Below are positions 15,008 to 64,000 of a stretch of 64,000 bases of DNA, piece by piece (the first letter of the stretch is position 1; each line of letters opens with the position of its first letter). This DNA comes from Achromobacter seleniivolatilans. GTDB lineage: Bacteria; Pseudomonadota; Gammaproteobacteria; Burkholderiales; Burkholderiaceae_B. Under the pieces are notes generated by a model. That model was not told the DNA's origin. It was given only the letters and a program-made list of their open reading frames with translations, and made no database searches. The DNA is taken from contig NZ_CP132976.1 in assembly GCF_030864005.1 (NCBI RefSeq), forward strand, positions 2,666,001 through 2,730,000, given 5' to 3'. The position numbers and the translations under genes were made by a program.

Positions 15008-15014
15008 ATTTCTT

Positions 15015-15062: not shown

Positions 15063-15193
15063 GGGCGTTTTAGAAATAGGCATAAATAAAGATCACTTAA
15101 AAATCAATGAGTTGCGGCGATAGCCATCCCCCAACCTGAAGGTGATCTAGTACCTTTTCATCAGAAATTCGACTGGTTTACGTCAAGATTACG

Positions 15194-19704: not shown

Positions 19705-19705
19705 A

Positions 19706-33879: not shown

Positions 33880-34749
33880 TTAATTCAGGATGGTTGCGAG
33901 GGATGCGGCCAGATCGGCCGTGGTATTAAGAGCAGCCGGGTGACCCGTGCCGCGTCCGGCGGCATCACGCACACCGCTGCCAGCCGAATCGCTCAGGCTG
34001 GACTTGAATTCAGAGATCAGGCGCTGGGCCTCGCTGCGCGGCAGGCCTGCTGCCCGCATTGCCGATTCGATTCGGCGCACGGCGCTGGCCGAGGTGCCGC
34101 TGGTGCCCTTGCCAACCTGGTCGGACGACAGAAGCTCGTCGGCATAGCCTTGGTCGATCGCCTGACTGCCGCCTATCCACGTTTCGCCGTCCATCTGGCG
34201 TTGAACGTAGGCCAGATCCTGGCCGCTACGCGCGACGTAGATGTCAGCCATAGCAGCATCGAAGGGTTCCATTGTGTCTGCGAACTCGCGCAGGTCATGG
34301 CGATTGCCCTGGGCCATCACCCAGCAATTGTGAATCATCAGGAAGCCGGCGCGCGCGATCTGCACCGTGTCACCTGCCATGGCAATGATGGAGGCGGCAC
34401 TGGCTGCCAAACCCAGCACCTTGACGGTCACCTCCCCCTGATGCTCGCGCAGCAGGTTGTAGATGGCCAGACCTTCGAACATATCGCCACCGGGGCTATT
34501 GACGTTGACCGTCACCGGGCCCGCGCCCATGCTGCGCAGGGCGCCAGCGATGCGCTTGACGGTCACCCCTTCGCCGGTCCACCAGTCGTATCCGATCACG
34601 TCGTAGACGCTGATGGTCCGCTCCGCTTCGTCCTCTACAGCAGCACGTACGCCCGCGTCCCAGCGTTCCAGGGCACGCGGTGACATGTAGGACGACACGG
34701 CCGCGCACGGGCGACCAGCCGGCGCCGCCGGCAGGTTCTTTTTGCTCAT
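33880..34749 (-). CDS. ClpP-like prohead maturation protease
   Basis: A 289-residue S14-type protease. It has NSPGGDMFEGLAIYN, the nucleophile Ser near 117 in GLAASAAS, and the His near 140 in MIHNCW. A C-terminal low-complexity extension follows about residue 210. It cuts capsid delta domains during head maturation. The place between portal and capsid fits HK97-like head modules. Confidence 0.9.
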   Translation of the reverse strand: MSKKNLPAAPAGRPCAAVSSYMSPRALERWDAGVRAAVEDEAERTISVYDVIGYDWWTGEGVTVKRIAGALRSMGAGPVTVNVNSPGGDMFEGLAIYNLLREHQGEVTVKVLGLAASAASIIAMAGDTVQIARAGFLMIHNCWVMAQGNRHDLREFADTMEPFDAAMADIYVARSGQDLAYVQRQMDGETWIGGSQAIDQGYADELLSSDQVGKGTSGTSASAVRRIESAMRAAGLPRSEAQRLISEFKSSLSDSAGSGVRDAAGRGTGHPAALNTTADLAASLATILN

Positions 34750-37818: not shown

Positions 37819-38224
37819 TGGTATTGAACTTGTTGCCGGTCTTCTCAGCAGGGGCAGAACCCCTCACCTTGCCCTGGGCAACAGGCGTGAGCCCGAATTC
37901 GCCAACCAGGGCACGGTACTGCGCGAGCATGTGACCGGTAGGGGTCTCGCCTGCCATCCATAGCTGCACCAGCTTCCCGTGCAACGCGCAGAGCATCGCC
38001 AGCGGCGACAGACTCGCTTCGGTAAGCAGGCGGTTCGAATGCAAGATGCGGGTAAGCCGATTCCACTCAGCCTCGGCGTGCTTGTTCGGCAACCACTCAG
38101 GAGCCTCCGGCACATCCAAGACCAGCGGCATTTCAACGGCCGGGGCTTCGGGCTGGGCGTCTCGGTCCGCACGCGATGTGCCGGCCACTACTTTCAGCGA
38201 GACCGGCTTCTTCGGTGGGGCCAT
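37796..38224 (-). CDS. Terminase small subunit, P27 family
   Basis: A 142-residue DNA-recognition subunit: PPKKPVSLKVVAGTSRADRD at the N terminus, then PEWLPNKHAEAEWNRLTRIL, typical for P27. I chose the ATG at 38224 because it gives the MAPPKKP start. Upstream of it lie A-rich tracts (38,236-38,275). Confidence 0.88.
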   Translation of the reverse strand: MAPPKKPVSLKVVAGTSRADRDAQPEAPAVEMPLVLDVPEAPEWLPNKHAEAEWNRLTRILHSNRLLTEASLSPLAMLCALHGKLVQLWMAGETPTGHMLAQYRALVGEFGLTPVAQGKVRGSAPAEKTGNKFNTNGKRRSA

Positions 38225-38330
38225 ATTGCCTCCAAAAAAACTCGTTTTTCTGATGTGACTGCGCAAAAAAAAGGCTGGGCGTCGGGTGTCCGTCAAAATC
38301 GGCCCGACTTTCGCCTCTCCCCCCCTCAGG

Positions 38331-43881: not shown

Positions 43882-45609
43882 TTACGCGGCCCCCCGGTTT
43901 TGCATGGAATAGATCGGTGGCCGCGTGAAGTGCGCGTAGTCGCGGTATTGCCCAGTCACGCGGTCGTAATGGAGCTCAACCATCCCCACTCGACCTACGA
44001 ACTTCTTGCGAATTTTCTGGATGTGGATCTCCACCGGCTTATGCTCGTCCTTGACGTGCCGGTACACCGTTATGCAGTTGTCGGCCTTGTTGCGCCAATG
44101 TGCCGAGCCGGATACGTCGTAAGGTGTGGGAATGGGGTAATCGCCGGACTCCTTGTCCTTGTAGAGCTTGGCCGGGTGCGCAACGACCCACGTGTGCACG
44201 CCATGCGCCCAGCAGAATTTACGGATCTTCGACAGGGCCAGGGAGATGTAGTCCGTCTCGGTCTGCCCCGCCGCGCGCCCATGCTCGATCTCATTCCACG
44301 GGTCCATGATCAGCCCGCGGATGCCCTTGCGAGTCACCAAGCGACTAGCCTGCTCCAGAAGGGCATCGAGGCTGGGCGATTCCGGCATCATGAACGTGAA
44401 GTGATCAGCCAAGAAATCCATCGCGCTGTCCAACTCAGCCACGTCCATACGCTCGCTCGGGCCTGCGGCGAACGGTTTGCCGATGAACTTTTCCATCAGC
44501 TTTTCGCTGTGATAGTCCGCGGGGAAGTTCTCAGGCGAGAACACACCGAAGTTCCAGCCGTGATGCTGCGCCAAGTGGACCGCCAGCGCGTCCAGCCATT
44601 CGGATTTGCCATGGCCAGGGATGCCGGTCACCAGTGTCCATTCGCCCTCTAGCACGGTGTAATGCCCGTCCATGCCCTGCCACCCGGTGGGGGTTCCGCG
44701 ACGTACCTCACCATCGTAGCGACGAAGGATTTCCGAACGGAAGTCCGTCACCGAGTAGGTGCCTTCGATCGGCACCGGCTGCGCGTCTTCGATGCACTTC
44801 TGCAAGGCTTCGGGGCCAAGCTTGATAAGCACATCGTTTGCGTCCTTGCAGTCTTCCGGCCAGGTCACGATCAGGCACTTATCCCTACCGAGCCGGCGGA
44901 CCAGCTCTTCCTGAAGGCGCCGGCCCGGCGCGTCGTCGTCCACAGCGATGACGTGTTCGCGGACGTTTGCGAGCTGTGCACAGTCAAGAAAATCGAACTT
45001 GCTGTCGTAGTTCTTCGTGTCCGGGGTAGGCGCGCCGTCGGGCACCGAGACACAGTTTTTGAAACCGCCCTCCTCCACGGACAGCTTGTCCATCTCGCCT
45101 TCGACCCAGATCAATACCGCATCCACGTCATTCAAGCCGTACAGCACACGCTTCGCCCCCGACGCAAGCCGAAACAGCTTGTCGCCGGTGCGGTACTTGA
45201 CGTTGATCACCTCATCGCCGTCCAGGTACGGGAACATCACGCAGGTTCGCTCCTCCTCAACCTGCGGGAAGTACTGCGAGCCGTAGCCGATGCAGTTGCG
45301 CAGCAGCGTGGCCTGACTGATGCCACGTCCGGCGAAGTAGTCCACGACCGCTTGTGGCAAGTCCGTACGGTTCACCACGTACTCGGGCTTGCGGTAGATC
45401 TTCGGCGCATCGGGACGGCGTTCTTCGCCATGCCCCAGCGATCCACCCCAACCGCAGTGGTGGCAGTTCCACAAGCCCTTGTCCGTGTTGACCGACAGGC
45501 AGGGGTAGTTCTTCTTCTTCCGGCTGGAAGAGCATTTCGGGCAGGTGGTCTTGACCTCGACACCCGAACGGCCGCGCAGATCGATTCCGAAGTCTTCGAG
45601 AGTTTTCAC
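43882..45609 (-). CDS. Replicative primase-helicase (T7 gp4/DnaB-like)
   Basis: A 575-residue fusion. It has a zinc-binding domain (CPKC 23-26, CHHC 49-52), a TOPRIM primase core with Glu 170 and Asp 224-226, and a RecA/DnaB-like helicase with Walker A GIPGHGKS at 329-336 and LIMDPWNEIEHG as the Walker B region. It unwinds and primes the phage fork by itself, so no host DnaB loader is needed. It overlaps the initiator gene by 4 bp. Confidence 0.92.
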   Translation of the reverse strand: MKTLEDFGIDLRGRSGVEVKTTCPKCSSSRKKKNYPCLSVNTDKGLWNCHHCGWGGSLGHGEERRPDAPKIYRKPEYVVNRTDLPQAVVDYFAGRGISQATLLRNCIGYGSQYFPQVEEERTCVMFPYLDGDEVINVKYRTGDKLFRLASGAKRVLYGLNDVDAVLIWVEGEMDKLSVEEGGFKNCVSVPDGAPTPDTKNYDSKFDFLDCAQLANVREHVIAVDDDAPGRRLQEELVRRLGRDKCLIVTWPEDCKDANDVLIKLGPEALQKCIEDAQPVPIEGTYSVTDFRSEILRRYDGEVRRGTPTGWQGMDGHYTVLEGEWTLVTGIPGHGKSEWLDALAVHLAQHHGWNFGVFSPENFPADYHSEKLMEKFIGKPFAAGPSERMDVAELDSAMDFLADHFTFMMPESPSLDALLEQASRLVTRKGIRGLIMDPWNEIEHGRAAGQTETDYISLALSKIRKFCWAHGVHTWVVAHPAKLYKDKESGDYPIPTPYDVSGSAHWRNKADNCITVYRHVKDEHKPVEIHIQKIRKKFVGRVGMVELHYDRVTGQYRDYAHFTRPPIYSMQNRGAA

Positions 45610-47882: not shown

Positions 47883-48128
47883 TTAAGCATGCGGGCGCTC
47901 CTGCTGTCTAGCTCGCCCCTTATGCTGACGCTGGAGCATTGCGGCGCAGTCCCGCACCGTGACCTCCCCACTAGTCTCGCGCTCGATTTCGATTGAATAA
48001 TGCAGTGAGATGGCGGTATGCCCCAACACCCACTGACTCACCAACGCTTGACTGACTGGTGGCCGCAGCGCTGCACCAAATTGGGCTTGGGAGCGCCCCT
48101 GCTCTTTCAGGTATACGGATAGGTGCAT
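47883..48128 (-). CDS. Cro/YdaS-like DNA-binding protein
   Basis: An 81-residue HTH protein (MHLSVYLKEQGRSQAQFGAAL, VSQALVSQWVLGHTAIS, YSIEIERETSGEVT), of the YdaS/Cro type. It is divergent from the CI-like gene with operator palindromes in between, so it probably acts as Cro for the lytic switch and is the first gene of the leftward early operon. Confidence 0.8.
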   Translation of the reverse strand: MHLSVYLKEQGRSQAQFGAALRPPVSQALVSQWVLGHTAISLHYSIEIERETSGEVTVRDCAAMLQRQHKGRARQQERPHA

Positions 48129-48142
48129 TGCTCAGCCTTTTA

Positions 48143-48169
48143 CTATTTAGGTCAAATAGTACAGCTATT
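48143..48169. promoter_or_regulatory. Repressor operators between cro-like and cI-like genes
   Basis: Two overlapping palindromes: CTATTTAGGTCAAATAG (48143-48159) and AATAGTACAGCTATT (48155-48169), with half-site AAATAG. A weaker copy sits near 48,179-48,196. They lie in the divergent promoter region of the Cro-like and CI-like genes. Confidence 0.72.
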
Positions 48170-48227
48170 CGAACTGACAATACAAGTGCAGCTATTCATG
48201 TTAAAAGTCTGGCTTTTAGGACGCGTA

Positions 48228-48659
48228 ATGAAAAAAGAGCTTTCCCAACAGCAGCAGGACGATGCCGCCAGACTGAGACTCTTGTTCGACGCCTGGAAGG
48301 AGGCGCACGGCGGCTCTCAAGCGAAAGCCGCCGCAGCGGGTGGTTTCGGATCTCAAGGAACGGTGTGGCAGTACCTCAACGGGCGCATCGCGCTAAATGC
48401 GAGTGCCGTCCTGAAGTTCGCAAAGCTGTTGCAGTGTTCTCCATGGGAGATTAGCCCCAGCATTGCTGCGGAGTACGATCTCACCAAGGAGTTGGGCGGA
48501 GTCAATCGGGAGGATGAGCCCAATGACTGGCCTTTTTTTTCCATACCGAGGTCCCGCTTCGATGCATTGACCGACCGGCAGAAGGGCCTGATTGAAGGCC
48601 GACTAGCGGCCATATTGGATGAAATAGAAAAAGATCCAGGAATCAGTGCGAAAAAATGA
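48228..48659 (+). CDS. CI-like repressor (HTH only)
   Basis: A 143-residue protein with a basic/Gln-rich start (MKKELSQQQQDDAARLRLLFDAWKE) and an XRE-like HTH (SQAKAAAAGGFGSQGTVWQYLNGRIALNASAVLKFAKLLQ). The C-terminal part is short, with no LexA-like peptidase, so induction by RecA cleavage is not evident. It overlaps the next gene by 4 bp. It should maintain lysogeny by binding the AAATAG operators. Confidence 0.8.
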   Translation: MKKELSQQQQDDAARLRLLFDAWKEAHGGSQAKAAAAGGFGSQGTVWQYLNGRIALNASAVLKFAKLLQCSPWEISPSIAAEYDLTKELGGVNREDEPNDWPFFSIPRSRFDALTDRQKGLIEGRLAAILDEIEKDPGISAKK

Positions 48660-50841: not shown

Positions 50842-51112
50842 GCCCCGCAACCCTTTCGAACAGTTGGAAGCAGCGAAGCGCGCACGGAACCAGTACATCC
50901 GCCTGTACGACGCGGCCACGGCCGAACTGTCCGAATTGAAAGGACGGGCGGCCGACCTCCGCGAGCGCTGCGCCACCCTGGCCAGCGCGCTGGAGATCAC
51001 CACCAGCATCCTGGAAGCCTCGACCGACAATCAATTGAAGGCCAGCGCCGCTGCGGCGCGGTCCCTGCTGAACACCGCGGGGCGCGCCCCCGTCACGGAG
51101 GCACATCAATGA
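50834..51112 (+). CDS. Small coiled-coil early protein
   Basis: A 92-residue protein, mostly one long helix (NPFEQLEAAKRARNQYIRLY to ATLASALEITTSILEAS), likely a coiled coil. Start ATG 50834. It overlaps the rha start by 4 bp. Function unknown. Confidence 0.7.
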   Translation: MHKPRNPFEQLEAAKRARNQYIRLYDAATAELSELKGRAADLRERCATLASALEITTSILEASTDNQLKASAAAARSLLNTAGRAPVTEAHQ

Positions 51113-51858
51113 ACGCAATAATCGACGGCGGCGTTGCCGCCACCATGACGAGCCAAGAAATCGCGGATCTGGTCGAATCCCGGCACGACAGTGTGAAGCG
51201 CACCATCGAGCGACTTTCGAATCAAGGGGTTATCACTTTCCCACCGTTGGTGGAAAAGGCATCTACAGGAGGACGACCGGCCGCGGAGTTCGTGTTCTCC
51301 GGCGAGAAGGGAAAGCGCGACAGCATCATCGTCGTCGCCCAGCTTTCGCCCGAGTTCACGGCACGACTGGTAGACCGGTGGCAAGCCCTGGAAGCCGGCA
51401 CCGCCCTTAAGGCGCTCAGCCCTGCCGAGATGCTGCTTGCCCAGGCCCAGCTCATGGTGGACCAACAACGTCGCCTGGAACAAAACGAGCAGGCCGTAGT
51501 AGAAGTCCGGAAGCAACTCGTCCAAGTCGCAGAATCCCGCGTGTGGGACCACTGCCCGCAGAACTGCGAGCCGATCACCAAGATCCGCGCACGAATGAAT
51601 CAGCGCTATGGGCTACCCGCTTGGGTGGTAGACACCGTTATGCGCGAGTTGCCGCTAAGCCTCAAGGTCCACGGCATGGTCCGCAACAACCACGAAAGCG
51701 CGGAGGGTTCGCACTACGAGGTTTGGGCGGTCGCCGACGTGACACGTGTGTTCAAGCAGTTCGTGAGCGAGTGCGCGCAGGAGACTCTGTGGTTCGCATC
51801 TCACCCCATGATCGGAGATCGATTCAAGCTGCGCCAACTGAAAGGGGAAGCTGCATGA
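51109..51858 (+). CDS. Rha-family phage regulatory protein
   Basis: A 249-residue protein. The N-terminal Rha domain (MTSQEIADLVESRHDSVKRTIERLSNQGVITFPP, about 13-100) is seen, with a coiled-coil stretch about 105-145 and a C-terminal helical domain. Rha genes affect host-dependent growth of lambdoid phages, in some cases blocking growth in cells lacking IHF; the mechanism is not known. Confidence 0.85.
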   Translation: MNAIIDGGVAATMTSQEIADLVESRHDSVKRTIERLSNQGVITFPPLVEKASTGGRPAAEFVFSGEKGKRDSIIVVAQLSPEFTARLVDRWQALEAGTALKALSPAEMLLAQAQLMVDQQRRLEQNEQAVVEVRKQLVQVAESRVWDHCPQNCEPITKIRARMNQRYGLPAWVVDTVMRELPLSLKVHGMVRNNHESAEGSHYEVWAVADVTRVFKQFVSECAQETLWFASHPMIGDRFKLRQLKGEAA

Positions 51859-53279: not shown

Positions 53280-53659
53280 CGACCATCGTCGAACTCCTCA
53301 ACCAAGGGCGCCGCGCACTTCTAATCCAAGAACTCGAGCGTCAGTGGCCAGGCTGCGGCGCTCATTCGAAGCGCAACCAGCTAACGAGGCAGGATGATGT
53401 GGTGTGGAATCTTCTGCTGCCAAAGCACGTAGACGCCGAGATCCGCGTGTACGTCCGAGGGTGGAATGCAGCGATGGACGATGCTCGGCGAGTCGTGGCC
53501 GCAGCAAGCCCGCTGGAATGCAGTGACATCCCAGCGGCAGGGCCGAACAACGGACACGGCGCACGGACGAATCGTCCTTTGGGGCGCCGTGACCCGATGA
53601 CCGCCCGGGCTGCACGAGCCGGCCTGGAACGCCTCTTCGATAAGGCAAACGGAGAATGA
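53276..53659 (+). CDS. Hypothetical protein near integrase
   Basis: A 127-residue protein with a helical N terminus (MTTIVELLNQGRRALLIQELERQWPG), a central DVVWNLLLPKHVDAEIRVYVRGWNAAMDDARR segment and a basic C-terminal tail. It overlaps its neighbours by 4 bp on both sides. No family recognised. Confidence 0.65.
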   Translation: MTTIVELLNQGRRALLIQELERQWPGCGAHSKRNQLTRQDDVVWNLLLPKHVDAEIRVYVRGWNAAMDDARRVVAAASPLECSDIPAAGPNNGHGARTNRPLGRRDPMTARAARAGLERLFDKANGE

Positions 53660-53991
53660 GCGAGGAAATCGCCATTTCCCTCCAGGAGGCGGCGAGACGG
53701 CTGGGCTTGTCTTACCAGACCGTGTTCGCCAGCCGAAAACAGATCGGTTTCAGACTGCCAGGCGGCCGTGCCTGGCGCGTCTGGCCCTCTCAACTTGCCC
53801 AGTTAGGGCAGAAAAGCAACAATGTGACCCGGCTATCGCTGCAGGTCGACGGAGATTCACCATGTCAATCCGCAGAGACAAAGCATCCGGGGTATGGCAG
53901 ATCGACATCTGCTCGCCAGGCATCCCGAGAATTAGATGCTCTTCTGGCACCACAGAAAAAAAAGCCGCTCAGGAGTACCACGACCGACTGA
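53656..53991 (+). CDS. Excisionase-like HTH protein
   Basis: A 111-residue protein with an HTH of the AlpA/excisionase type (ISLQEAARRLGLSYQTVFASRKQIGFRLPGGRAWRVW). It lies immediately before and overlaps the integrase by 130 bp, a common Xis-Int arrangement. The C-terminal half overlaps int and is less certain. It would direct excision, which is now moot if int is broken. Confidence 0.72.
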   Translation: MSEEIAISLQEAARRLGLSYQTVFASRKQIGFRLPGGRAWRVWPSQLAQLGQKSNNVTRLSLQVDGDSPCQSAETKHPGYGRSTSARQASRELDALLAPQKKKPLRSTTTD

Positions 53992-54818
53992 AGGCTGAGG
54001 CCTGGCGGAAAGTGAAGTTTGGAGAGGAACCGACCCATACTTTCGACGAAGCCGCGCTACAGATGCTCCGCCTTTCCGAAGGTCAGCGGGATTACGACAC
54101 CAAGGTACGCCACGTCAAATACTGGCGTGGCGTGCTTGGCGGCGGCACAGCAGTCAGTTCTTTAACAAGCGGCGCCATTCTTCAGGGCCTGCCCACACAT
54201 TCCACTCACGCGCACCGGAAGGCCAAACCTTTATCAGCCGCGGCGAAGAATCGATATCTTGCGACCATTCAACGCATTTTGTCCTTATGCGTCGAATGGG
54301 GTTGGTTGAACCGATCGCCGAAGCTTCGAAAGTTTGTCGAGCCCGACGTACGCGTACGGTGGGAGCCGCCCGCGGTGATCGTTCAGTTAATCCAAGCCAT
54401 GTCTACCGACTGGATGCGAGAAGTTAGCCTATTCGCGGTGGCCACCGGGATGCGGGCAACCGAAGTGCTGTCACTTTCATGGGCGCATGTAGACATGGCT
54501 AAATCTCATGCATGGATTACGCATGGCCGAGCCAAGAATAAGCGAGCGCGGGCCGTCCCGCTGAACTCTGACGCAATGGCTGTACTACGACGCCGTATGG
54601 GAACTCATCCGGTCCTAATCTTTAGCCGGCGACCGCGTCCTGGTCGTGAACCTGCCCAAATTAGTCAGATCGACTCGTCGATTCTCTCGGGCGCTTGCAA
54701 ACAGGTTGGCATCACCGGGTTTCGATTCCACGATTTCCGCCATACCTGGGCCTCATGGCATGTACAGGCCGGAACCCCTCTGATGGTCTTGAAAGAACTG
54801 GGCGGCTGGGAACGTGTG
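53862..54818 (+). pseudogene. int: Tyrosine integrase, C-terminus removed by Mu-like insertion
   Basis: The remaining 319 codons show an SAM-like core-binding domain and the catalytic Arg at 198 (ATGMRATEV) and the HxxR box at 290-293 (FHDFRH), then LGGWERV. The usual following segment with the catalytic Tyr is missing: the frame runs into phage-end sequence and stops at 54836. The resident prophage probably cannot excise by itself unless the missing part is restored or another integrase helps. Confidence 0.88.
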
Positions 54819-54826
54819 GGGAGGTG

Positions 54827-54973
54827 CGCAGTTTGAGACAAAGACAGCCGCCGGAATCTCAGAAATTCCGCCTCTGGATCAAGGGGTTATCCACATTTCC
54901 ACGGAGTGGGGCATTTGCGACCGCCTTTAGCCGAAATGCTAAGAAGTGCGAACAAACGCACGCAATTTGCGAC
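54827..54973 (+). repeat. Three transposase-binding-like repeats at the phage left end
   Basis: CGCAGTTTGAGAC (54827-54839), GGGCATTTGCGAC (54909-54921) and CGCAATTTGCGAC (54961-54973), all in one orientation, within 160 bp of the left end and before the first gene. This matches the L1-L3 layout of MuA-binding sites. Confidence 0.72.
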
Positions 54974-54985
54974 GGGATAGGGCTT

Positions 54986-55561
54986 TTATAGGGCCTGCTG
55001 GCAGGCTGCCAGGTTTGTCCACAGTTCCCGCTCTACCTCCTCAGCCGCCCCAGTAGCCTTAAGATCAGCAAGCGCATAGCCGTTGTGCAGGCCCGTGCGG
55101 AAAAAGTGGTACCAGTCTCCTAGTGCTTTGCCTGCTCCTTCGCATGTGGAATAGGAAGGGACCCAGCTGTTTTTTAGGTCGTATGCCTGCACGCCGAAGA
55201 CGTATGGAACCTCTTGCGCGGTGAACAAGGGCCACTCCTGCTGCACGTACTGATCCCCGGCTCCCATGAAGAAAGCTGCATCGTTTCCGTTCAGTGCAGC
55301 CCGAACCCTGAAAGCAGCACGGCGAATCACTGCCTCGGCTTCCGCCGCAGCTTCTCGCGTCTGCTCTCTTGTCCAAGCCTTCAAAGCTGGCCCAGTTTGC
55401 GATGCATCTGCGTGTATGAAGCGGACCGCCGCCGCATCGGCTGGCCCCTGCGCACCTGCCAAAACGGTGGCGGAGAAGAAGGCCCCAAAAGTGAGGGATG
55501 ACGCAACCAGGAAGGAGAGGACAGGTTGCGTGCCGGTGAATTTTCTCGACGTCAATGACAT
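54986..55561 (-). CDS. Exported cargo protein of the Mu-like phage
   Basis: A 191-residue protein with an N-terminal signal or anchor (PVLSFLVASSLTFGAFFSATVLAGAQG) and a soluble Ala-rich domain (about 35-190), including FFMGAGDQYVQQEWPLF and YSTCEGAGKALGDWYHF. Located between the left end and the repressor, on the repressor strand, it is likely expressed in the lysogen. No family recognised; a surface-modifying or exclusion role is possible. Confidence 0.65.
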   Translation of the reverse strand: MSLTSRKFTGTQPVLSFLVASSLTFGAFFSATVLAGAQGPADAAAVRFIHADASQTGPALKAWTREQTREAAAEAEAVIRRAAFRVRAALNGNDAAFFMGAGDQYVQQEWPLFTAQEVPYVFGVQAYDLKNSWVPSYSTCEGAGKALGDWYHFFRTGLHNGYALADLKATGAAEEVERELWTNLAACQQAL

Positions 55562-55657
55562 CCCTCTAAGTCCTTGAAAATTAATAATAAATTTAACCAG
55601 GCCGGAACTGAGCTGGTTGCGGCCGTTTCCCTCACATAGCGACTTCAATAGTGCTCA

Positions 55658-56020
55658 TCATTCGCCGCTAGCCTTGCGGCGCGCGGAGATTTCGCGCGCC
55701 AGCGTAGCCCCCGTGGCCTCTATAGCCCTTTTACCGACTTCGGCCGTGTGACGGTAGTTATCAATTAACGCCTCTTCCCGAGGGGTTAGGGGCAAAGAGG
55801 TGCGTACCGGGGCTAAGGTCAAATTTTGTTTACCTGTCACAACAAAATTGATATCTGCGCCCAGCTCTGCAAACACGGCCAAATACTCAGCATTGGGAAA
55901 TGTCTTGCCCTTCTCATAGCTGATTTGCACCTGCTTTGACGTGCCCGCATGCGCAGCCAGGGCTGTCTGCGACAGCCCTAGTCTTTCCCTTTCCGCACGG
56001 AGACGGTCCCCTATGGTCAT
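55658..56020 (-). CDS. Mu-like repressor, XRE family
   Basis: A 120-residue protein with a canonical XRE HTH (RLRAERERLGLSQTALAAHAGTSKQVQISYEKGKTFPNAEYLAVFAEL, about 5-52) and a helical C-terminal part for oligomerisation. It is divergent from the Ner-like gene. It keeps the transposition genes off in the lysogen. ATG at 56020. Confidence 0.85.
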   Translation of the reverse strand: MTIGDRLRAERERLGLSQTALAAHAGTSKQVQISYEKGKTFPNAEYLAVFAELGADINFVVTGKQNLTLAPVRTSLPLTPREEALIDNYRHTAEVGKRAIEATGATLAREISARRKASGE

Positions 56021-56064
56021 CAAAACTTTCCCTAATTACGGATTGACAGGTAAATATTTCTTTA

Positions 56065-56107
56065 CCATAATCCAACACAATCCAACTTTTAACAACGCAT
56101 TCCAACA
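56065..56107. promoter_or_regulatory. Operator-like TCCAAC direct repeats
   Basis: TCCAAC occurs at 56071, 56081 and 56101, that is at 10- and 20-bp spacing, in the divergent region between repressor and Ner-like genes. The helical phasing suggests binding sites for the repressor or Ner on one DNA face. Confidence 0.6.
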
Positions 56108-56115
56108 CGGCTGCG

Positions 56116-56358
56116 ATGAAAAAAAATACTGCCTCTCCAGCGACGTCCCGCCGCTCCCCATCGCGGGACTTGGCGTGGTTCCGTGCCAACGGCGTGACTA
56201 TCAGTTCATGGTGCCGCCAGGAAGGCCTTAGCTACCACGTAGTCAGGGAGCTTCTATATGGCCGCAACAAAGGCATACGTGGGGAATCTCACCGCGCCGC
56301 CATTGCCCTAGGGATCAAACCAGACCCGAAAACACTGGATAAGGAAGATTCGAAATGA
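56116..56358 (+). CDS. Ner-like early regulator
   Basis: An 80-residue basic protein with an HTH of Ner/Nlp type (LAWFRANGVTISSWCRQEGLSYHVVRELLYGRNKG). Ner shuts down early and repressor promoters during lytic growth. It overlaps muA by 4 bp. Confidence 0.82.
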   Translation: MKKNTASPATSRRSPSRDLAWFRANGVTISSWCRQEGLSYHVVRELLYGRNKGIRGESHRAAIALGIKPDPKTLDKEDSK

Positions 56359-58580
56359 CTACGGTCACAGTATCGGATGTCCTTGTAACACAACGATTTA
56401 ACGCTGGCGAGGAAGCGTCTGAGGCCACGTATACGGCATCTGAACTTCTTGGCCTAGCGTTGCCTTGCTTGCCGTCAACCTTGCCGAGCATCGGTCGCCG
56501 AGCGCAAGCAGAAGCATGGGCGTTCTTGGAATCCAAATCTGGCTCAGGCGCAGGCGCTCGCGGTATCGTGAGACGCTATTTCGTGCCGCCCTACGTCCGT
56601 GCTGCGGTTCAGCTGAAACAGGCAACGCAGGCAGCTGCCCGTAGCACGCCCCAGTTGGAAGCGGCAAGTGCTGCCGTGGCTCTGTCATCCAAACAACGAG
56701 CGGTAGCAGAGGCCCGTGCCGCACTTTTGCTGCATGTTCATCGCTTGGCGGCTTCCGTGGGTATGAGCCAAGCGATACAGCAGACGGTTTACGCCGCCCA
56801 GAATCGTGAACTCCCCCCCCCATTGGCGCAGGCAGTTGCAGTCGCGAACGACAAAGCGGGCAACAACAGGACCCTTACTCGGGCCACACTCTACCGCTGG
56901 CTGGCCAAGTTCGACCTGCGGCAACCCAATGCCGTAGAACTGCTCGCGCCTGCGAGCGCTGGTAAGACCCGGCGCGGCAGCTGGCTGCGAGAAGTTGTCG
57001 CGCCGTGGGCTGATGCCGCGCTCAAGCTCTACCAGCGCCCGCAAAAGCCATCACTGCGCTGGGTGCACGACCAGCTACCCGCGTATCTGCCGAAGGGCGT
57101 GACCCCGCCCAGCTACGACACCTTGCGCCGCTTCATCGGCCAGATGGGCAACGTCGCGATTGAACAGGGGCGCATGGGTTCCCGCGAGATAAAGGCCATC
57201 AAGCCTTTCGTGCGTCGGGACACGTCCAAGCTTTGGCCTGGCGATATCTATATGGCAGACGGCCACGCCTTTGACGCGGAGGTCGCGCACCCTCGGCATG
57301 GTCGCCCGTTTCGCCCCGAAATCACGACCGTGCTGGACACCAGTACCCGCAAGGCTTTGGGCTGGTCGACGGACCTGGCTGAATCCGGCCTGGCTGTCCT
57401 TGACGCGCTGCGCGTTGCAACCCAGACAGGCGGCATCGCCAGCGTGTTCTATGTGGACCGGGGGGCGGGCTATATCAACGCAATGATTAGCGGGCCGGGC
57501 ACTGGCCTGCTGTCTCGGCTCGGGACCACGCTGACGCATTCCCTGCCTTACAACTCGCAAGCGCGAGGCATCATCGAACGCGCCCACCAATCCATATGGG
57601 TGCGCGCCGCCAAGGAACTACCTACCTACATCGGCAAGGATATGGACGCGGAGGCAAGCAACAAGGTCCACAAGCTGACCCGGCGCGATGTCAAACGCTT
57701 GGGCGCAAGCCGTGCACTCATGGCCTGGCCGGAATTTGTTGCTTTTGCCGCTGACCAGGTCGAGCAATACAACGACCGGCCCCATCGTGGCCTGCCGATG
57801 ATGTCGGACCCAACTACGGGTAAGCGGCGTCACATGACACCCAATGAAGCATGGGCCAAGGGAGTCCAGGACGGCGCAGACCTGGTGCGGTTGCTGCCGA
57901 GCGAGGCCGACCACCTATTCCGTCCGCAGCAGCAATGCCGCGTGCTGCGGGGCGAAATTCGCCTGTTCAACAATACCTATTTTTCGCATGAGCTGACCGA
58001 GTACCACGGCGAGGGCGTCAACGTCGGGTTCGACATCCACGACCCCAGCCAGGTGTGGGTCCACGACGCCGAAGGCGTCCTGCTATGCAAGGCGCAGTTG
58101 GACGGCAATCGTCGCGACTTCATGCCGGAGAGCTTCCTGGACCGCGCAAACCGCAGGCGTGCAGAAGGTCGCGCACGTCGCTTGCAAGACAAGCTCACGG
58201 AAGTCCGCGAAGAGCTGCACGGCGGGCCGCTGCTGCTGGAGAACGACCCGGCGCAGCGCGTTCCCTTCTTGGCGGAAATCGACGCCCTGCGATTGGGGCA
58301 GACCGTGGATGTCCAAGCCATCGAGGTCTCCCGCGAACAAGCCACCGTCGCCGCCGTTCGCCCGGCCTTCCGCAACCCGTCCGAGCGATACGAATGGCTC
58401 AAGGCTGAAGGCCATGCCGCGTGGAAGGAATCAGACAAGCAATTCCTTTCTGAATACGTCCGAGACCCGGATGGTTACGCACTGTTCGCGGAGCGCTATG
58501 AGCTGCTGGGCTTGGCCTGGAGCGAGCAGGACGAACAGGAATTGAACAGTTTCAAGAACCCCGCACGCAAGGTTGCGTGA
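56355..58580 (+). CDS. MuA-type DDE transposase
   Basis: A 741-residue transposase that cuts and joins phage ends. A short N-terminal DNA-binding domain (AQAEAWAFLESKSG) is present, then a second HTH part, an RNase-H-like core with Asp 302 (YMADGHAFD), Asp 368 (FYVDRGAGY) and Glu 408 (GIIERAHQ), and a beta-barrel and C-terminal MuB-contact region. Full length. A C9 tract lies in codons 153-155. Confidence 0.93.
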   Translation: MTTVTVSDVLVTQRFNAGEEASEATYTASELLGLALPCLPSTLPSIGRRAQAEAWAFLESKSGSGAGARGIVRRYFVPPYVRAAVQLKQATQAAARSTPQLEAASAAVALSSKQRAVAEARAALLLHVHRLAASVGMSQAIQQTVYAAQNRELPPPLAQAVAVANDKAGNNRTLTRATLYRWLAKFDLRQPNAVELLAPASAGKTRRGSWLREVVAPWADAALKLYQRPQKPSLRWVHDQLPAYLPKGVTPPSYDTLRRFIGQMGNVAIEQGRMGSREIKAIKPFVRRDTSKLWPGDIYMADGHAFDAEVAHPRHGRPFRPEITTVLDTSTRKALGWSTDLAESGLAVLDALRVATQTGGIASVFYVDRGAGYINAMISGPGTGLLSRLGTTLTHSLPYNSQARGIIERAHQSIWVRAAKELPTYIGKDMDAEASNKVHKLTRRDVKRLGASRALMAWPEFVAFAADQVEQYNDRPHRGLPMMSDPTTGKRRHMTPNEAWAKGVQDGADLVRLLPSEADHLFRPQQQCRVLRGEIRLFNNTYFSHELTEYHGEGVNVGFDIHDPSQVWVHDAEGVLLCKAQLDGNRRDFMPESFLDRANRRRAEGRARRLQDKLTEVREELHGGPLLLENDPAQRVPFLAEIDALRLGQTVDVQAIEVSREQATVAAVRPAFRNPSERYEWLKAEGHAAWKESDKQFLSEYVRDPDGYALFAERYELLGLAWSEQDEQELNSFKNPARKVA
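56813..56821 (+). repeat. C9 homopolymer inside the transposase gene
   Basis: Nine C code for three prolines (ELPPPLA) near residue 154 of MuA. A one-base slip would truncate the transposase before the catalytic core. Confidence 0.85.
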
Positions 58581-58665
58581 GGCCTTAATGAAATGGCCCG
58601 GAAGGTGCGGGAACACCAACCGGGCCGGGAAAGCTGACTTGCAAGAGTCAGGAGGATATTACACC

Positions 58666-59403
58666 GTGAAAAAAGCCTTTGTCCAAAATAGCAACTATGT
58701 GCGCTTCGTTGAGGCCGTCAAGGCTGTAGAACAGCGCGGGGCGCGTGAAGCCTCCATCCTGCTTGTGACTGGCCCTGCCGGGCTGGGTAAGAGCGAGACG
58801 GTAGACCGCTTTGCGATGGATACCAATGCTATCTATCTGCGCGCCAAAGAAACCTGGACCAAGCGCGGCCTGCTGTCCGAAATGGCAGACTGCCTCAAGC
58901 TGTCCAATACGGGCCGCAATCAGGAAGTCCAGGCCCGCATCATCGGCCACGTCGCCGCCCGCCAGACACCCATCGTCATTGACGAAGCCGAATTCACTGT
59001 ACGCACTACCGCATCCATATTGGAATGCGTGCGCGACATTTCCGACCTAACCGAGGTCCTGGTTGTCCTGGTCGGAATGGAAACCATCGAAAGCCGCATT
59101 GCGCGCTATCCGCAGATTTCCAGTCGCGTCGCCCAGGTCGTTCACTTTCAGCCGTTGAATCAGCAAGACGTGATGCTCACGGCGCGGCAGCTGGGCGAGG
59201 TCAGGATTGCCGATGAGGTCGTTGCGGAGCTGCACCGCCAGTCCGATGGCCGCATGCGTCTGGTCATGAACGGCATTGCCGCGCTCGAACGTCTCGCCGC
59301 AACGAATGGCCTGACCGAAGTGCGAGCCGAGCATATCAAGGACTTCCCCCTGTGCCATGACTGGCAGGGTCGACGCACACGCATCCCTGGGAGGACGGCA
59401 TGA
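58666..59403 (+). CDS. MuB-like AAA+ target-selector ATPase
   Basis: A 245-residue ATPase: Walker A GPAGLGKS at 36-43, Walker B IVIDEAE at about 103-109. It should bind target DNA and deliver it to MuA. The GTG at 58666 is chosen for its AGGAGG site. It lacks the N-terminal HTH of Mu MuB, as in shorter relatives. An inverted repeat lies in the 85-bp leader (58,594-58,626). Confidence 0.9.
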   Translation: MKKAFVQNSNYVRFVEAVKAVEQRGAREASILLVTGPAGLGKSETVDRFAMDTNAIYLRAKETWTKRGLLSEMADCLKLSNTGRNQEVQARIIGHVAARQTPIVIDEAEFTVRTTASILECVRDISDLTEVLVVLVGMETIESRIARYPQISSRVAQVVHFQPLNQQDVMLTARQLGEVRIADEVVAELHRQSDGRMRLVMNGIAALERLAATNGLTEVRAEHIKDFPLCHDWQGRRTRIPGRTA

Positions 59404-60020
59404 GCCACGTATGGACATCCCAGGCCGTCATGGCTGCATTGCATCGCCTGGTTGACTCAACCGACCAGCTTGACCTGGCGGACATCGTCCGTGAGTCCGG
59501 CCTGGAACGTAAGCAGGTAATCAGCGCTTGCGACAAGCTTGTATCGCACGCGTTTCTGTCGCGTCAGCAGTACAGCGATGGCAAGGTCAAGCCGGGCAAA
59601 TTCAAGCTTACGCCCGAGGGGCGCATTGCATTGGAAGCGGGGGCCAACCTCAAGAGCGGCCCGAAGGGGCCGAGCGGCAAGGCTCGCGACACGGCGGGGT
59701 CCTTGCGTGAAAAGGTCTGGAGACTGCTGCGCATCCGTCAGAAGGCGTCTGTGCCCGAAGTGGTCGCCTTGCTTTGCGACGGCGACGCCACCCCCCAGAC
59801 CATGAAACGCACGACCGACAACGTCCAGAAGTACCTGCGCGCCTTGCGTGCCACTGGCTACCTGATCGAAATGCGGCGCGAGCCGGGCACGAAGCCCACC
59901 AGCAACGGGTTCAAGCGGTATCTGCTGGTGCGCGATAGCGGCCCGCTTGCGCCGACCCGACGCGGCAAGGATTGCGTCTATGACCCCAATGAGGAACGTG
60001 AGTATGTCGTCCTGGCTTGA
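59400..60020 (+). CDS. Winged-helix DNA-binding protein
   Basis: A 206-residue protein with two wHTH-like parts (LDLADIVRESGLERKQVISACDKLVSHAFLSRQ, about 25-70, and a second around 105-160). It is likely an early regulator or accessory DNA-binding protein. It overlaps muB by 4 bp. Confidence 0.75.
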   Translation: MSHVWTSQAVMAALHRLVDSTDQLDLADIVRESGLERKQVISACDKLVSHAFLSRQQYSDGKVKPGKFKLTPEGRIALEAGANLKSGPKGPSGKARDTAGSLREKVWRLLRIRQKASVPEVVALLCDGDATPQTMKRTTDNVQKYLRALRATGYLIEMRREPGTKPTSNGFKRYLLVRDSGPLAPTRRGKDCVYDPNEEREYVVLA

Positions 60021-60399
60021 TTTGGTACGCGCAGAAGTGAAGGCATCCGGCAGCATCACCGCAACGGCAAAGAGAATGAATTGCTCGCGGTCGGCACTGT
60101 CGCAGGTCATCAACCATTGCGGCCCCTATGGCACCGGCAAGGCTAGCGTATCCAAGCTGGCCGAGAAAGCCATTCATGCATTCACGAAGGTGCATTGCCC
60201 CTTCCTGACGGAGTTTCATGGCCAAGCAACGGTCATTACCGGCGCGGAATGCCGTGGGCACGCGGACCGCGAGACGCCGCCCATCAACAATCCCCGCGAG
60301 CTGCGCCACTGGCGGGCGTGCCAAACCTGCCCGCACCGCGCCAAGTATGTCAGCCCGCAAGCCACGCCCTCATCCGAAATCATCGGGGAATTCCAATGA
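60004..60399 (+). CDS. Small HTH and Cys-rich protein
   Basis: A 131-residue protein. The N terminus has an HTH (GSITATAKRMNCSRSALSQVINH), and the C terminus has ACQTCPHRAKYV as a possible metal-binding site. It starts within the end of the previous gene and overlaps the next by 4 bp. Confidence 0.72.
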   Translation: MSSWLDLVRAEVKASGSITATAKRMNCSRSALSQVINHCGPYGTGKASVSKLAEKAIHAFTKVHCPFLTEFHGQATVITGAECRGHADRETPPINNPRELRHWRACQTCPHRAKYVSPQATPSSEIIGEFQ

Positions 60400-60734
60400 T
60401 GAACGCTGCAAACGACTCACGCATGGTTAACGATCAATCCCTATTCCGCGAAAGCGTTATTCACCGCCCCGCGATCTTGACGCTGGATATCCAGGCGCGC
60501 CTGGCCACGATCAATGCGGCCTGCCGCGAGTTGCGCAAGCTGGGCTTGCGCATCGTTGACCAGGACGTGGCACCGAACGATGAGGGCCGCCCGGTGGTCA
60601 ATCTCGGCCCGATCCTGCCCGACCAAGCCGACCAGCTCGTCAGCATGGCGGGCGGCAGCACCCGAAATTCCGCAACGCAATGGCATAGCGCGTCCGTGTT
60701 CGCCGTGCGCGCCGTCTGGACTATCCCGCAGTAA
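60396..60734 (+). CDS. Mu-like early protein, unknown
   Basis: A 112-residue protein (LDIQARLATINAACRELRKLGLRIVDQDV... VNLGPIL). No known domain. It is coupled to the previous gene by ATGA. Confidence 0.7.
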   Translation: MMNAANDSRMVNDQSLFRESVIHRPAILTLDIQARLATINAACRELRKLGLRIVDQDVAPNDEGRPVVNLGPILPDQADQLVSMAGGSTRNSATQWHSASVFAVRAVWTIPQ

Positions 60735-60753
60735 GCGCCAGGAGGTATCACCC

Positions 60754-61131
60754 ATGAACAATCCGCGAAGCACTGACAGCGTCACGGTCACGGACATCCA
60801 ATGCACCGCGCACCGCGCCTTGTACGAACAGCTCACGACCGAGCGCGCCCGCTGGACGCCGGAGCTTGACCGATGTGTGCGGGCCTATTTTGAGCTGCAA
60901 AGCCCCCCGTCCCCGGAAGACAGTCCCCTCCAGATGTTCGCCAACTACGGCACGAGCCTTGGCATCGCGCAATCGCTCCATGCCATGGGATGCATTTCGG
61001 AGCATGCCTTGGGTCACATGGCGCGCTTTGCCTCCAACCAGATGGCCAGAAAGCTCCTACCGTGGAACGGTCGCGCCTTTGAGGTCGCCAGCGGCTATGG
61101 CACTCCCCACGAAACCCCCTCCTACCACTAA
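60754..61131 (+). CDS. Mu-like early protein, unknown
   Basis: A 125-residue protein with an AGGAGG site before the ATG. The middle segment (MFANYGTSLGIAQSLHAMGCISEHALGHMARFA) looks structured and conserved. No family recognised. Confidence 0.7.
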   Translation: MNNPRSTDSVTVTDIQCTAHRALYEQLTTERARWTPELDRCVRAYFELQSPPSPEDSPLQMFANYGTSLGIAQSLHAMGCISEHALGHMARFASNQMARKLLPWNGRAFEVASGYGTPHETPSYH

Positions 61132-61146
61132 GCACGAAGGAAACTC

Positions 61147-61761
61147 ATGAGCAAGCAAATACCCCCCGGCTACCGCGCCCGCGCTGACGGCACCCTCGTT
61201 CCCGAGGCGATGGTTAGCGATATCGACAAGCTGCGTGATCAGACGGTCGAATCACTCATTGTTAACGCGAAGGCGATCAGCGCCAAGCTGGCTGAATTCA
61301 AGAGCGCCGCATTTTCAGACCTGGACGCGTTCACGTCGACCAGCCTGGAGATGTACGGCGTCAAGAGCGGCGGACGAAAGGGAAACCTTACGGTTGTCTC
61401 GTTCAACGGCCAATACAAGATCGTGCGCCAGGTGCAAGAGCGCCTGGCGTTCGATGAGCGCTTGCAAGCGGCCAAGACGCTGATTGACGAATGCATCATG
61501 GCTTGGTCCGCAAGCAGCACGGATGAAATCAAGGTGCTGGTCAATGACGCTTTCCGGGTTGACCAGGAAGGGCAGATCAACACCGCCCGCGTCCTCGGCC
61601 TGCGTCGTCTCAATATCAAGGATGAGAAATGGCAGCGTGCCATGACCGCGATTGGCGACAGCCTGCGCGTGGACGGCAGCAAGCCCTATATCCGCTTCTA
61701 CGAGCGCGCAGAAGGCTCCGACGAGTACACCCCCATTTCGCTGGACTTCGCGGCAATCTGA
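61147..61761 (+). CDS. DUF3164 family protein
   Basis: A 204-residue DUF3164 protein: IPPGYRARADGTLVPEAMV at the N terminus, then YGVKSGGRKGNLTVVSFNGQYKIVRQVQERL and ALGLRRLNI-like end (VLGLRRLNIKDEKW). It is common in transposable phages as an early protein of unknown role. Confidence 0.85.
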   Translation: MSKQIPPGYRARADGTLVPEAMVSDIDKLRDQTVESLIVNAKAISAKLAEFKSAAFSDLDAFTSTSLEMYGVKSGGRKGNLTVVSFNGQYKIVRQVQERLAFDERLQAAKTLIDECIMAWSASSTDEIKVLVNDAFRVDQEGQINTARVLGLRRLNIKDEKWQRAMTAIGDSLRVDGSKPYIRFYERAEGSDEYTPISLDFAAI

Positions 61762-61843
61762 CGCGCCACGGCTGCAATGGCCCCGATCTACCGTCAGCCG
61801 TCGACGGGCGCACGCGGGTAAACGTGCGCGGTTCAGGACCCTG

Positions 61844-61875
61844 GCCGGGCGGGGTGTGCGGCCCCGGCAATTTTT
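61844..61875 (+). terminator. Intrinsic terminator or attenuator after DUF3164 gene
   Basis: A GCCGGG/CCCGGC stem with a 13-base loop followed by AATTTTT, in the 128-bp gap after the DUF3164 gene. It may lower transcription of the downstream gp16-mor part. Confidence 0.6.
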
Positions 61876-61889
61876 GGAGAGCGGCACAA

Positions 61890-62105
61890 ATGCGTAAGAG
61901 CATAGAAACCGAGCTGGGCACAGAGGTGCAGTGTGCTGCTTGCAAGAACTTCTGGCCAGCAGACGGCGAGTTCTATTTTATGGACAGAGGTCGGTTGCGC
62001 TCACGGTGCAGGGCCTGCGAGAAGGACAGCCCGACACGCCAGGCGTTCTGGGCAAAGCGACAGCAGCAACGCAATGAAGGCCGTAACACGATAGCGACGG
62101 CTTAG
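61890..62105 (+). CDS. Small zinc-finger protein
   Basis: A 71-residue protein with CAACKNFW and CRACEKDS, a two-pair zinc ribbon. GGAGAG precedes the ATG. Likely nucleic-acid binding. Confidence 0.7.
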   Translation: MRKSIETELGTEVQCAACKNFWPADGEFYFMDRGRLRSRCRACEKDSPTRQAFWAKRQQQRNEGRNTIATA

Positions 62106-62115
62106 GGACCAAAAC

Positions 62116-62571
62116 ATGACGAAATTGAAGCAAGACGATATGAAGGCGATCACAACCGAGCTGGCGTCGCCCTGGGGCTGCGTGGGCCTGGTCTGCGACG
62201 GCTACCGTGTGACGGTCGCGGTTGTGCGTACCGGCACGCTCAGGTTCGGCCTGACGGTGTATATCAACGGTCGGCAGACAGGCAAGCAGCTGGTGGAAGA
62301 CTGCGAAGAACGTAGGCGCTTTCTGCGTCCGTGCGAGCAGTACTTGTATTCGCCAGCGGAGCGCAAGAATCTCGTAAAAATTGGCGGAAAGCGCTTTGCC
62401 AAGCAGATGGGCGCGGAAAAACGCTTTACGTTCCATTCCCATAACTGGCTATCGGTGCGCACCATGCTGCGCCACTTCACTGCCAACAATGCAAGCGTGG
62501 AGCTTGTTGAAATTGGTGCGTCCGCTGTCAGGGCCAGCCTGCCGCGTGATGAGGCCGTCACCGATGCGTAG
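62116..62571 (+). CDS. Mu-like phage conserved protein, unknown
   Basis: A 151-residue protein with a beta-rich N terminus (ASPWGCVGLVCDGYRVTVAVV, LRFGLTVYINGRQTG) and helical C-terminal part. It overlaps the gp16 gene by 8 bp. Similar proteins accompany gp16 in transposable phages; role unknown. Confidence 0.7.
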   Translation: MTKLKQDDMKAITTELASPWGCVGLVCDGYRVTVAVVRTGTLRFGLTVYINGRQTGKQLVEDCEERRRFLRPCEQYLYSPAERKNLVKIGGKRFAKQMGAEKRFTFHSHNWLSVRTMLRHFTANNASVELVEIGASAVRASLPRDEAVTDA

Positions 62572-62992
62572 CCCTTCGACTCCGCTGGCCGTGGCACGCA
62601 AGCGCGCCATTTCCGCCGTTCACGTTCTCAAGACGCAAGCGGGTATGAGCGACGATGAGTATCGCGCCATGCTCCAGGCGCAAACCGGCCTGACAAGCAG
62701 CAAGGATCTGGACATCGCGCAGTTGCGTCGCGTCTTGGATCACTTCGCCCGCCTGGGCGTTAAGTCCCAGGGCCGCGCCAAGCTGGACCGCGTTGGCACC
62801 TCTCGCCAGCGCCTGCTGGCGAAGCTGACGGCCCAATTGAATGCGGCAGGCCGAGACCGTCGCTATCTGGACGGGATGGTCAAGCGCATAGCCAAGGTGG
62901 ACGCCTTGGAATTCTGCGACGAGCATGCGCTTTCCAAGCTGATTGCGGCGCTCGCAATTGACGCCAAACGACATGGACGGGCTTATCCGTGA
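62564..62992 (+). CDS. Mu gp16/GemA-like protein
   Basis: A 142-residue gp16 family protein: KRAISAVHVLKTQAGMSDDEYRAMLQAQTGLTSSKDLDIAQLRRVLDHF, typical for GemA, which affects host gene expression and DNA topology during Mu growth. It overlaps the mor start. Confidence 0.85.
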   Translation: MRSPSTPLAVARKRAISAVHVLKTQAGMSDDEYRAMLQAQTGLTSSKDLDIAQLRRVLDHFARLGVKSQGRAKLDRVGTSRQRLLAKLTAQLNAAGRDRRYLDGMVKRIAKVDALEFCDEHALSKLIAALAIDAKRHGRAYP

Positions 62993-63465
62993 ACAAGATT
63001 GCCGCAAGCCGCACCGACCTGTCTGAGGTCGCCGGACTGGTTCCGCCCGCAGCACAAGCTCTGATTGCGGTGATTGGCTTGCGCGCAACGTCGGAGCTGG
63101 TGCGCCAGCTCGGTGGCACGACCTTTGCAGTACCCCAACGCGAAACCCGACTCGGAGAGGCCAAGTTTGAAGCGCTGGCCGAGGTCGTTGGACCCGATGC
63201 CGCCATGGCCATGGTGCGGCACTTTGGCGGTGAATCGCTGTACATTCCGCGCTGCCGGGATGCGCTGGTGGAGTACATCTACCGCGACATCCGGCAGACG
63301 TTCGACCGCCTCACCCGCGATACGTCAGCAATACAGGCTGTCTCCGTCCTGGCCGTACGTTACGGCTATTCCGACCGTCATATCTGGTCCATCCTCAAGA
63401 TGGCCGACCGCTTCGGCCAGGCCGAACAAGCTGTGCGGGCCGCTGGTCAGCTCGGCCTCTTCTGA
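62989..63465 (+). CDS. Mor-like middle-operon activator
   Basis: A 158-residue Mor/C family protein with an N-terminal dimerisation part (about 20-90) and a C-terminal HTH (SAIQAVSVLAVRYGYSDRHIWSILK, about 110-137). It activates the phage middle or late promoter. Start GTG 62989, overlapping the gp16 TGA. It is the last early gene before a 88-bp gap and the lysis gene. Confidence 0.88.
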   Translation: MNKIAASRTDLSEVAGLVPPAAQALIAVIGLRATSELVRQLGGTTFAVPQRETRLGEAKFEALAEVVGPDAAMAMVRHFGGESLYIPRCRDALVEYIYRDIRQTFDRLTRDTSAIQAVSVLAVRYGYSDRHIWSILKMADRFGQAEQAVRAAGQLGLF

Positions 63466-63519
63466 CTCTATACAAACACCCACTGAAGTGATTCACGGCG
63501 CGCTCTAGGCGCAGCATCG

Positions 63520-63557
63520 GCATAGTCATGTCCAGCAACTATTGGACACGACTATGC
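63520..63557. promoter_or_regulatory. Inverted repeat over the lysozyme start
   Basis: Two 15-base arms (63520-63534 and 63543-63557) with one mismatch and an 8-base spacer. The right arm contains the lysozyme ATG (63554). It could be a Mor/C-type dyad operator or an mRNA hairpin that hides the start. Confidence 0.6.
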
Positions 63558-64000
63558 ACCCGGAACACACTTCAGAGGCTGGCGTCTCGCTTATCGAACA
63601 CTTCGAGAGCTGCCGCCTGAAAGCCTATTGGGACCCACACGGCAAATGCTGGACAATCGGCTGGGGCCACACTGGCCTGGATGTGTATGAGGGTTTGGTC
63701 ATCACGCAGGCAGTCGCTGACGCCATGCTTGCGCAAGACCTGATTGAACGCGAGAACGCCGTTAAGAAGTTCTTTGCTAGCGTGCCCCTCACGCGTGGCG
63801 AGTTCGATGCGCTGGTGTCTTTCTTGTACAACGTAGGCCCCGGCAAACGTGGCATCAAGTCCGGGCTGTTCGTGTTGATGAGCGGCCAAGTCTCCACGCT
63901 CGCCCGCAAGGTGCTGGCCCGCGATTACGCCGGAGCAGCCGAAGAATTCCCCAAATGGATTTATGCGGGCGGCGTCCCCCTTCGCGGGCTGGAACGTCGA
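63554..64000 (+). CDS. GH24 phage lysozyme (3' partial)
   Basis: At least 149 residues of a T4/P22-like muramidase (RrrD type). The N-terminal IEHFESCRLKAYWDPHGKCWTIGWGHTG has the catalytic Glu, the Asp and the Thr in the usual spacing; FLYNVGPGKRG follows. No SAR helix is seen at the start, so a holin is needed. The ATG at 63554 lacks a strong ribosome site. The gene runs past the window end. Confidence 0.9.
   Translation, partial: MHPEHTSEAGVSLIEHFESCRLKAYWDPHGKCWTIGWGHTGLDVYEGLVITQAVADAMLAQDLIERENAVKKFFASVPLTRGEFDALVSFLYNVGPGKRGIKSGLFVLMSGQVSTLARKVLARDYAGAAEEFPKWIYAGGVPLRGLERR

Follow-up and report, generated by a model that had tools for sequence, protein, structure and literature searches.

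A Mu-like prophage lies within the split integrase gene of a resident prophage at a tRNA-Met gene of Achromobacter seleniivolatilans

The window, i.e. the whole analysed stretch of 64,000 nucleotides from contig NZ_CP132976.1 of A. seleniivolatilans, contains one complete boundary and the structural genes of a resident (outer) prophage as well as the left part of a second, Mu-like (inner) prophage. Positions called window-equivalent continue this numbering past 64,000 on the same contig (6,676,907 bases). A family library was applied to 14 ORFs of the outer and 28 ORFs of the inner prophage. On the minus strand, the outer prophage encodes a J-like tail-tip protein (21342..25214; PHROG 31, E 3e-129), a tape measure protein (26415..29402; PHROG 24, E 7e-72), the major capsid protein (32691..33869; PHROG 10, E 7e-76), a head maturation protease (33880..34749; PHROG 1684, E 5e-116), the portal protein (34760..36052; PHROG 12, E 2e-102), the large (36049..37818; PHROG 9, E 2e-146) and small (37796..38296; PHROG 83, E 3e-17) terminase subunits, and a primase/helicase (43882..45609; PHROG 239, E 9e-92). 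The large terminase is akin to those of the Pseudomonas phages TC7 and phi2 (73% to TC7). The plus strand carries genes for a repressor-like regulator (48123..48659; PHROG 4, E 7e-8) and an anti-repressor-like protein (51109..51858; PHROG 63, E 5e-29), and an excisionase-like gene (53656..53991; PHROG 2907, E 4e-11) that overlaps the integrase gene int.

The borders of the outer prophage are an attL of 56 bp (15007..15062) and an attR at window-equivalent 86989-87043, which form a 98.2% identical repeat with one gap, attL having one extra base. The attR, whose existence had been predicted in the preliminary description, overlaps a tRNA-Met gene that ARAGORN places at window-equivalent 86997-87075 in the extended stretch, with host DNA beyond. 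Two ACGTCAA units 11 bp apart (15180..15198) recur as an identical stretch of 19 bp at window-equivalent 86910-86928 within the 3' end of int. Both ends of the prophage thus carry this pair internal to the att core, where it probably represents an Int arm site. With its attL/attR repeat, one copy of which falls within a tRNA gene adjacent to int, the outer element has the layout of a tRNA-integrated temperate siphovirus; without the insert it comprises about 40 kb.

The 5' part of int (53862..54814, plus strand) belongs to an ORF (53862-54836, 324 aa) that matches Phage_integrase (PF00589, E 5e-26). Over residues 1-319 its product is 94% identical to the 361-aa integrase of a congeneric genome (G011). 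An alignment of the two proteins showed that they are collinear through Arg318, after which the window ORF ends with six foreign residues, VGRCAV, and a stop codon. It retains Arg198 (ATGMR) and His290/Arg293 (HDFRH) but lacks the motif VQKYAH with tyrosine 325 of the G011 protein, in agreement with the earlier view that the Arg and HxxR boxes were kept and the Tyr region lost. We take these four residues to be the catalytic residues of the tyrosine integrase family. The similarity stops at 54815, where TGTGGGGAGG starts. The preliminary description had placed this loss after LGGWERV; the loss is real, but the break falls between 54814 and 54815 within the Arg318 codon, and the V after LGGWER is already foreign.

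Several relatives of this integrase were noted. All 254 phage records that matched it are below 60% identity, among them Shewanella phage vB_Sb_QDWS with 54.5%. In G011 (contig C2, about 83980-84031 and on; L104-L106), no tRNA-Met comes after the intact 94% integrase gene and the att core; what follows them resembles the left part of the outer prophage (window 18925-20053), an arrangement like that of an attP or of tandem prophages. In three other congeneric genomes (L014, L015, L016), members of this integrase family that are partial or contain stop codons adjoin tRNA-Met, and integrase relatives of 58-59% identity adjoin tRNA-Lys (L011-L013).

When the sequence was extended beyond the window, the missing part of int was located in an 80-kb stretch by means of the integrase of Shewanella phage QDWS (E 4e-8). 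The inner element starts at 54815 (TGTGGGG...) and, as had been anticipated for a Mu-like right end, terminates at window-equivalent 86842 (...CGCTACA), which amounts to 32,028 bp. Past this end follow a GAACG repeat and the remainder of int, IEMVQKYAHLAPTHL... (window-equivalent 86843-86980), with its tyrosine. The left junction reads GGCTGGGAACG|TGTGGGGAGGTG and the right junction GCGCTACA|GAACGGATCGAGATGGTG, so that GAACG flanks the element on both sides (54810..54814 and window-equivalent 86843-86847). Both the 5-bp target duplication and an int 3' end with its Tyr beyond the right end had been predicted. TG...CA ends together with a short target duplication (5 or 6 bp) are marks of a Mu-like phage, and the part of PMC8705779 consulted for this point states that transposable phages make five-bp duplications.

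By itself, an open window ORF with a terminal stop codon would also suit a complete natural integrase variant that ends in VGRCAV and merely has a Mu-like element as neighbour. However, the last six residues are coded by the left end of the element itself, and the missing 3' end lies in register past its right end, after the target duplication. The probability of such a variant is therefore practically nil; finding the int remainder with the tyrosine downstream refutes it. As judged at the sequence level, the match of the two int parts across the element is not due to chance. An assembly artefact that fused two separate prophages is likewise extremely improbable, as exact TG/CA ends, together with a 5-bp duplication and the rest of the interrupted gene beyond the element, are not what a misjoin is expected to produce. 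The split gene thus stands as the preferred reading. Since int is split in codon 318 and its tyrosine is encoded beyond the insert, we class the outer element as an integrase-deficient prophage and not as a functional phage.

The site without the insert is found in other genomes of the genus. When the flanks are joined, they match L014 (89%), L010 (86%), L015 (85%) and L016 (85%), and the alignments inspected (those to L014 and L010 completely, that to L016 partly) run through the site without a break save for two bases that were carried over in the join. A search with the empty-site pattern, allowing at most 3 mismatches, gave matches in 4 of the 43 genomes of the genus and none in the genome of A. 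seleniivolatilans itself; a reversed control pattern had no match in these 43 genomes.

The left part of the inner prophage occupies 54815..64000 on the plus strand and runs on to window-equivalent 86842. Close to its left end, three TTTGMGAC repeats are found at element positions 14, 96 and 148 (54828..54977, plus strand), and the 200 bp at the right end hold two more, at positions 14 and 36. These are likely transposase binding sites, in a layout that presumably resembles the end sites of the Mu transposase. Between the left end and the repressor gene lies a gene on the minus strand (54986..55648) for a protein of 220 aa without a Pfam or PHROG match. It has four homologues besides itself, one of them from an Achromobacter veterisilvae MAG, and is perhaps a cargo gene expressed during lysogeny. 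The neighbouring HTH protein (55658..56023, minus strand; HTH_31, E 7e-8) is the likely repressor. The genes listed next are on the plus strand: another HTH DNA-binding protein (56116..56358; PHROG 925, E 1e-18), the transposase A (56355..58580; Mu-transpos_C, E 2e-17), a B-like ATPase (58573..59403; AAA_22 and TniB), a DUF3164 protein (61147..61761; E 6e-78), GemA (62381..62992; E 1e-23), a Mor activator (62989..63465; E 6e-15) and an endolysin (63542..64000; PHROG 7, E 5e-46), the gene of which continues beyond the window. The inner element therefore possesses a transposase A with a Mu-type C-terminal domain (its rve domain scores under the cutoff), a B-type ATPase, and a Mor-type activator with GemA in the early/middle region.

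After Mor, the gene order is endolysin, holin, spanin, large terminase, portal, minor head protein, protease, capsid, sheath, tape measure, baseplate, fibre and fibre-assembly. Judged by kinds of genes, the head, tail and lysis set is complete, i.e. it includes terminase, portal, protease, capsid, sheath, tape measure, baseplate, fibre, holin, endolysin and spanin. With 32,028 bp, the element is shorter than the 36-39 kb given in the consulted part of PMC8705779 as the usual length of transposable phages, which is a customary range and not a definition. It is not cut off, because it is bounded by both ends. The inner transposase is present in one copy in its own genome. One of 43 genomes of the genus and, at E 1e-60, one of 268 genomes of the family contain it, the own genome both times, and in a draw from the order it was detected in 19 of 399 genomes, the own one included.

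Among known phages, the D3112/JBD-type phages of Pseudomonas aeruginosa provide the points of comparison. Over residues 215-655 the inner transposase shows 52% to that of JBD24, while none of the phage records covers 80% of it, and the large terminases of Forsyth and JBD30 are 67% identical to that of the inner phage. According to the section of PMC4378225 at hand, the D3112/JBD group has long flexible tails, whereas the inner phage has tail-sheath and baseplate genes. It looks mosaic, with a D3112/JBD-like transposase and terminase combined with contractile-tail sheath and baseplate genes.

The inner element (54815 to 86842) is thus enclosed by the att boundaries of the outer prophage (15007 to 87043), and extension of the sequence has borne out the original reading of a Mu-like element in the integrase of a resident prophage. 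The sequence directly shows the element ends with the duplication, the two parts of int, both att sites and, in each phage, structural genes with open reading frames. We regard it as highly probable that a Mu-like prophage of 32 kb, situated between copies of its 5-bp target, interrupts, at codon 318, the tyrosine integrase gene that belongs to a prophage at tRNA-Met, that it likely arrived by transposition, that the outer prophage is likely locked in the chromosome, and that the inner one would still transpose. Entry by transposition is inferred because the element has TG and CA ends, is flanked by the duplication, carries repeats at both ends and encodes A and B. In the simplest history, lysogeny by the outer phage would have come first, and the inner phage would later have transposed into int.

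From this anatomy, a locked outer and a mobile inner phage may be deduced, as may the joint mobilisation of the pair or the formation of hybrids that the preliminary description envisaged. A truncated Int without the tyrosine should at most bind att DNA and should be unable to cleave it; therefore, the outer phage would not excise alone. On induction, it would be replicated or packaged in place, if at all, barring an Int from a related phage. The inner phage, on the other hand, would replicate by transposition and could carry along some of the flanking int, tRNA and host DNA. It is also conceivable that the nesting is real and the outer phage is nevertheless still mobile, be it by the Int of a related phage, by another recombinase, or because the inner element is precisely lost. 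Int might come in trans from a related phage, because G011 has an intact relative with 94% identity and related int sequences lie beside the same tRNA-Met in L014, L015 and L016; moreover, the att sites and the excisionase-like gene persist. Against this, the integrase search found no second close integrase in the own genome, the two other matches, which cover part of the query, reaching 32% and 35% identity. We consider continued mobility of the outer phage rather unlikely and prefer the locked state.

One may further speculate that the insertion couples both phages as a single unit. Transcription of the outer xis-int region would continue into the inner element head-on to the repressor gene and its neighbour, so that induction of the outer phage would wake the inner one; the outer phage would act as a stationary particle factory that packages its neighbourhood including the inner phage, and the inner phage would export pieces of the outer one. 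When 53200-56500 was scanned with a terminator consensus, the plus strand gave no terminator between int and the inner repressor and the minus strand a single one, fewer than in shuffled sequences (mean 4.0); this is weak evidence. Such a coupling appears improbable to us at present.

Prophages within prophages have been described for E. coli. In the portion of PMC8112680 available to us, they integrate through attB sites that are carried by the outer prophage. As at the present locus, a temperate phage resides in another prophage, and the host prophages are apparently defective. Whereas the E. coli case is one of site-specific integration, the present element is bounded by Mu-like ends and a duplication of 5 bp, and its insertion is what disrupts int; neither mu-like nor transpos occurs as a term in the available text of PMC8112680. 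The same text mentions integrases inactivated by IS elements, and in an excerpt of PMC2669165 the disrupted integrases of Sp3, Sp11 and Sp12 of E. coli O157 Sakai are predicted to block excision. These cases share with ours the prediction that loss of int stops excision, but int is disrupted here by an entire phage genome that brings its own particle genes. The phrase 'nested prophage' yielded no literature match, and among the matches listed, the titles and starts of abstracts contain no description of a transposable phage within an integrase gene. The locus differs from the known ones by its likely entry through transposition and by an int that was broken by the entry itself. It is a well-resolved instance of the known prophage-in-prophage arrangement, via transposition into int, and not a new type of system.

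It is important to note that the locus captures, to the base, how one temperate phage has likely grounded another: the int of the rival is split and its particle genes are left open. It may serve as a concrete case for studying packaging in place, prophage domestication and cross-induction, and it suggests that such a region of 72 kb could pass as one chimeric phage in automatic annotation.

An insertion in int raises the idea that the transposase clade of the inner phage seeks integrase genes as targets. Junctions were counted when the left end was recognised and at least 500 bp of flank was present. Out of 11 loci on genome contigs, seven were counted (L039, L040, L041, L042, L045, L046, L047). 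The search of the order gave 19 non-self places, from which 18 flanks were taken (G583, with a match near the contig start, was omitted) and 11 counted (L130, L132, L134, L135, L136, L138-L142, L147; the left end of L140 is the weakest). L131 was dropped for its flank of 127 bp, and L133, L137, L143-L146, L043, L044, L048 and L049 were dropped as their left ends were not confidently recognised. From a virus collection, 54 loci led to seven counted junctions (L053, L058, L061, L062, L073, L086, L100); shorter flanks were dropped, and L054 was left uncounted as a duplicate of the L053 junction. An integrase HMM, built on the integrase of the window together with 27 further ones, served to screen every flank, and the flank ORFs of 13 of the 18 cellular junctions were also compared with Pfam, L040, L041, L042, L135 and L141 being covered by the HMM only. 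The sensitivity of the HMM is limited, because L061 scored only E 0.003.

Two of the seven recognised left junctions on virus-collection contigs are in integrase ORFs. These relatives, L053 (50% transposase identity) and L061 (44%), sit in Phage_integrase ORFs, the latter with 26.4 bits against a cutoff of 27.1. However, this collection probably favours phage-like flanks, and none of the 18 recognised junctions in cellular genomes is in a recognised integrase (four of the 13 Pfam-checked ones are without a family). The nearest named genes at these junctions are of LysR, cytosine-permease, GGDEF/EAL, ankyrin, RlmL-like, HU-like, QPRTase, nitroreductase and DUF1800 types. The sole HMM match among the order flanks is at L146 (213-1127), about 4.5 kb from the transposase, where the left end was not recognised. 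Furthermore, the accessible part of PMC5977238 describes transposition of the related phage HW12 as mostly random. Since the virus collection is probably biased and HW12 inserts mostly at random, we claim no preference. That the clade seeks integrase genes is very doubtful, and an integrase preference is probably absent.

Two loci of the virus collection deserve a separate description. In L053 (1203-2236; L107, IMGVR_UViG_3300047462_000747), a Mu-like element is inserted in another tyrosine integrase gene, close to the 3' end of that gene; the element is flanked by the 5-bp duplication GCGAC, and the interrupted integrase keeps its HY motif. At L061 (6458-7994, an IMG/VR contig), a third relative abuts an ORF of 512 aa, the one whose Phage_integrase match falls just under the cutoff.
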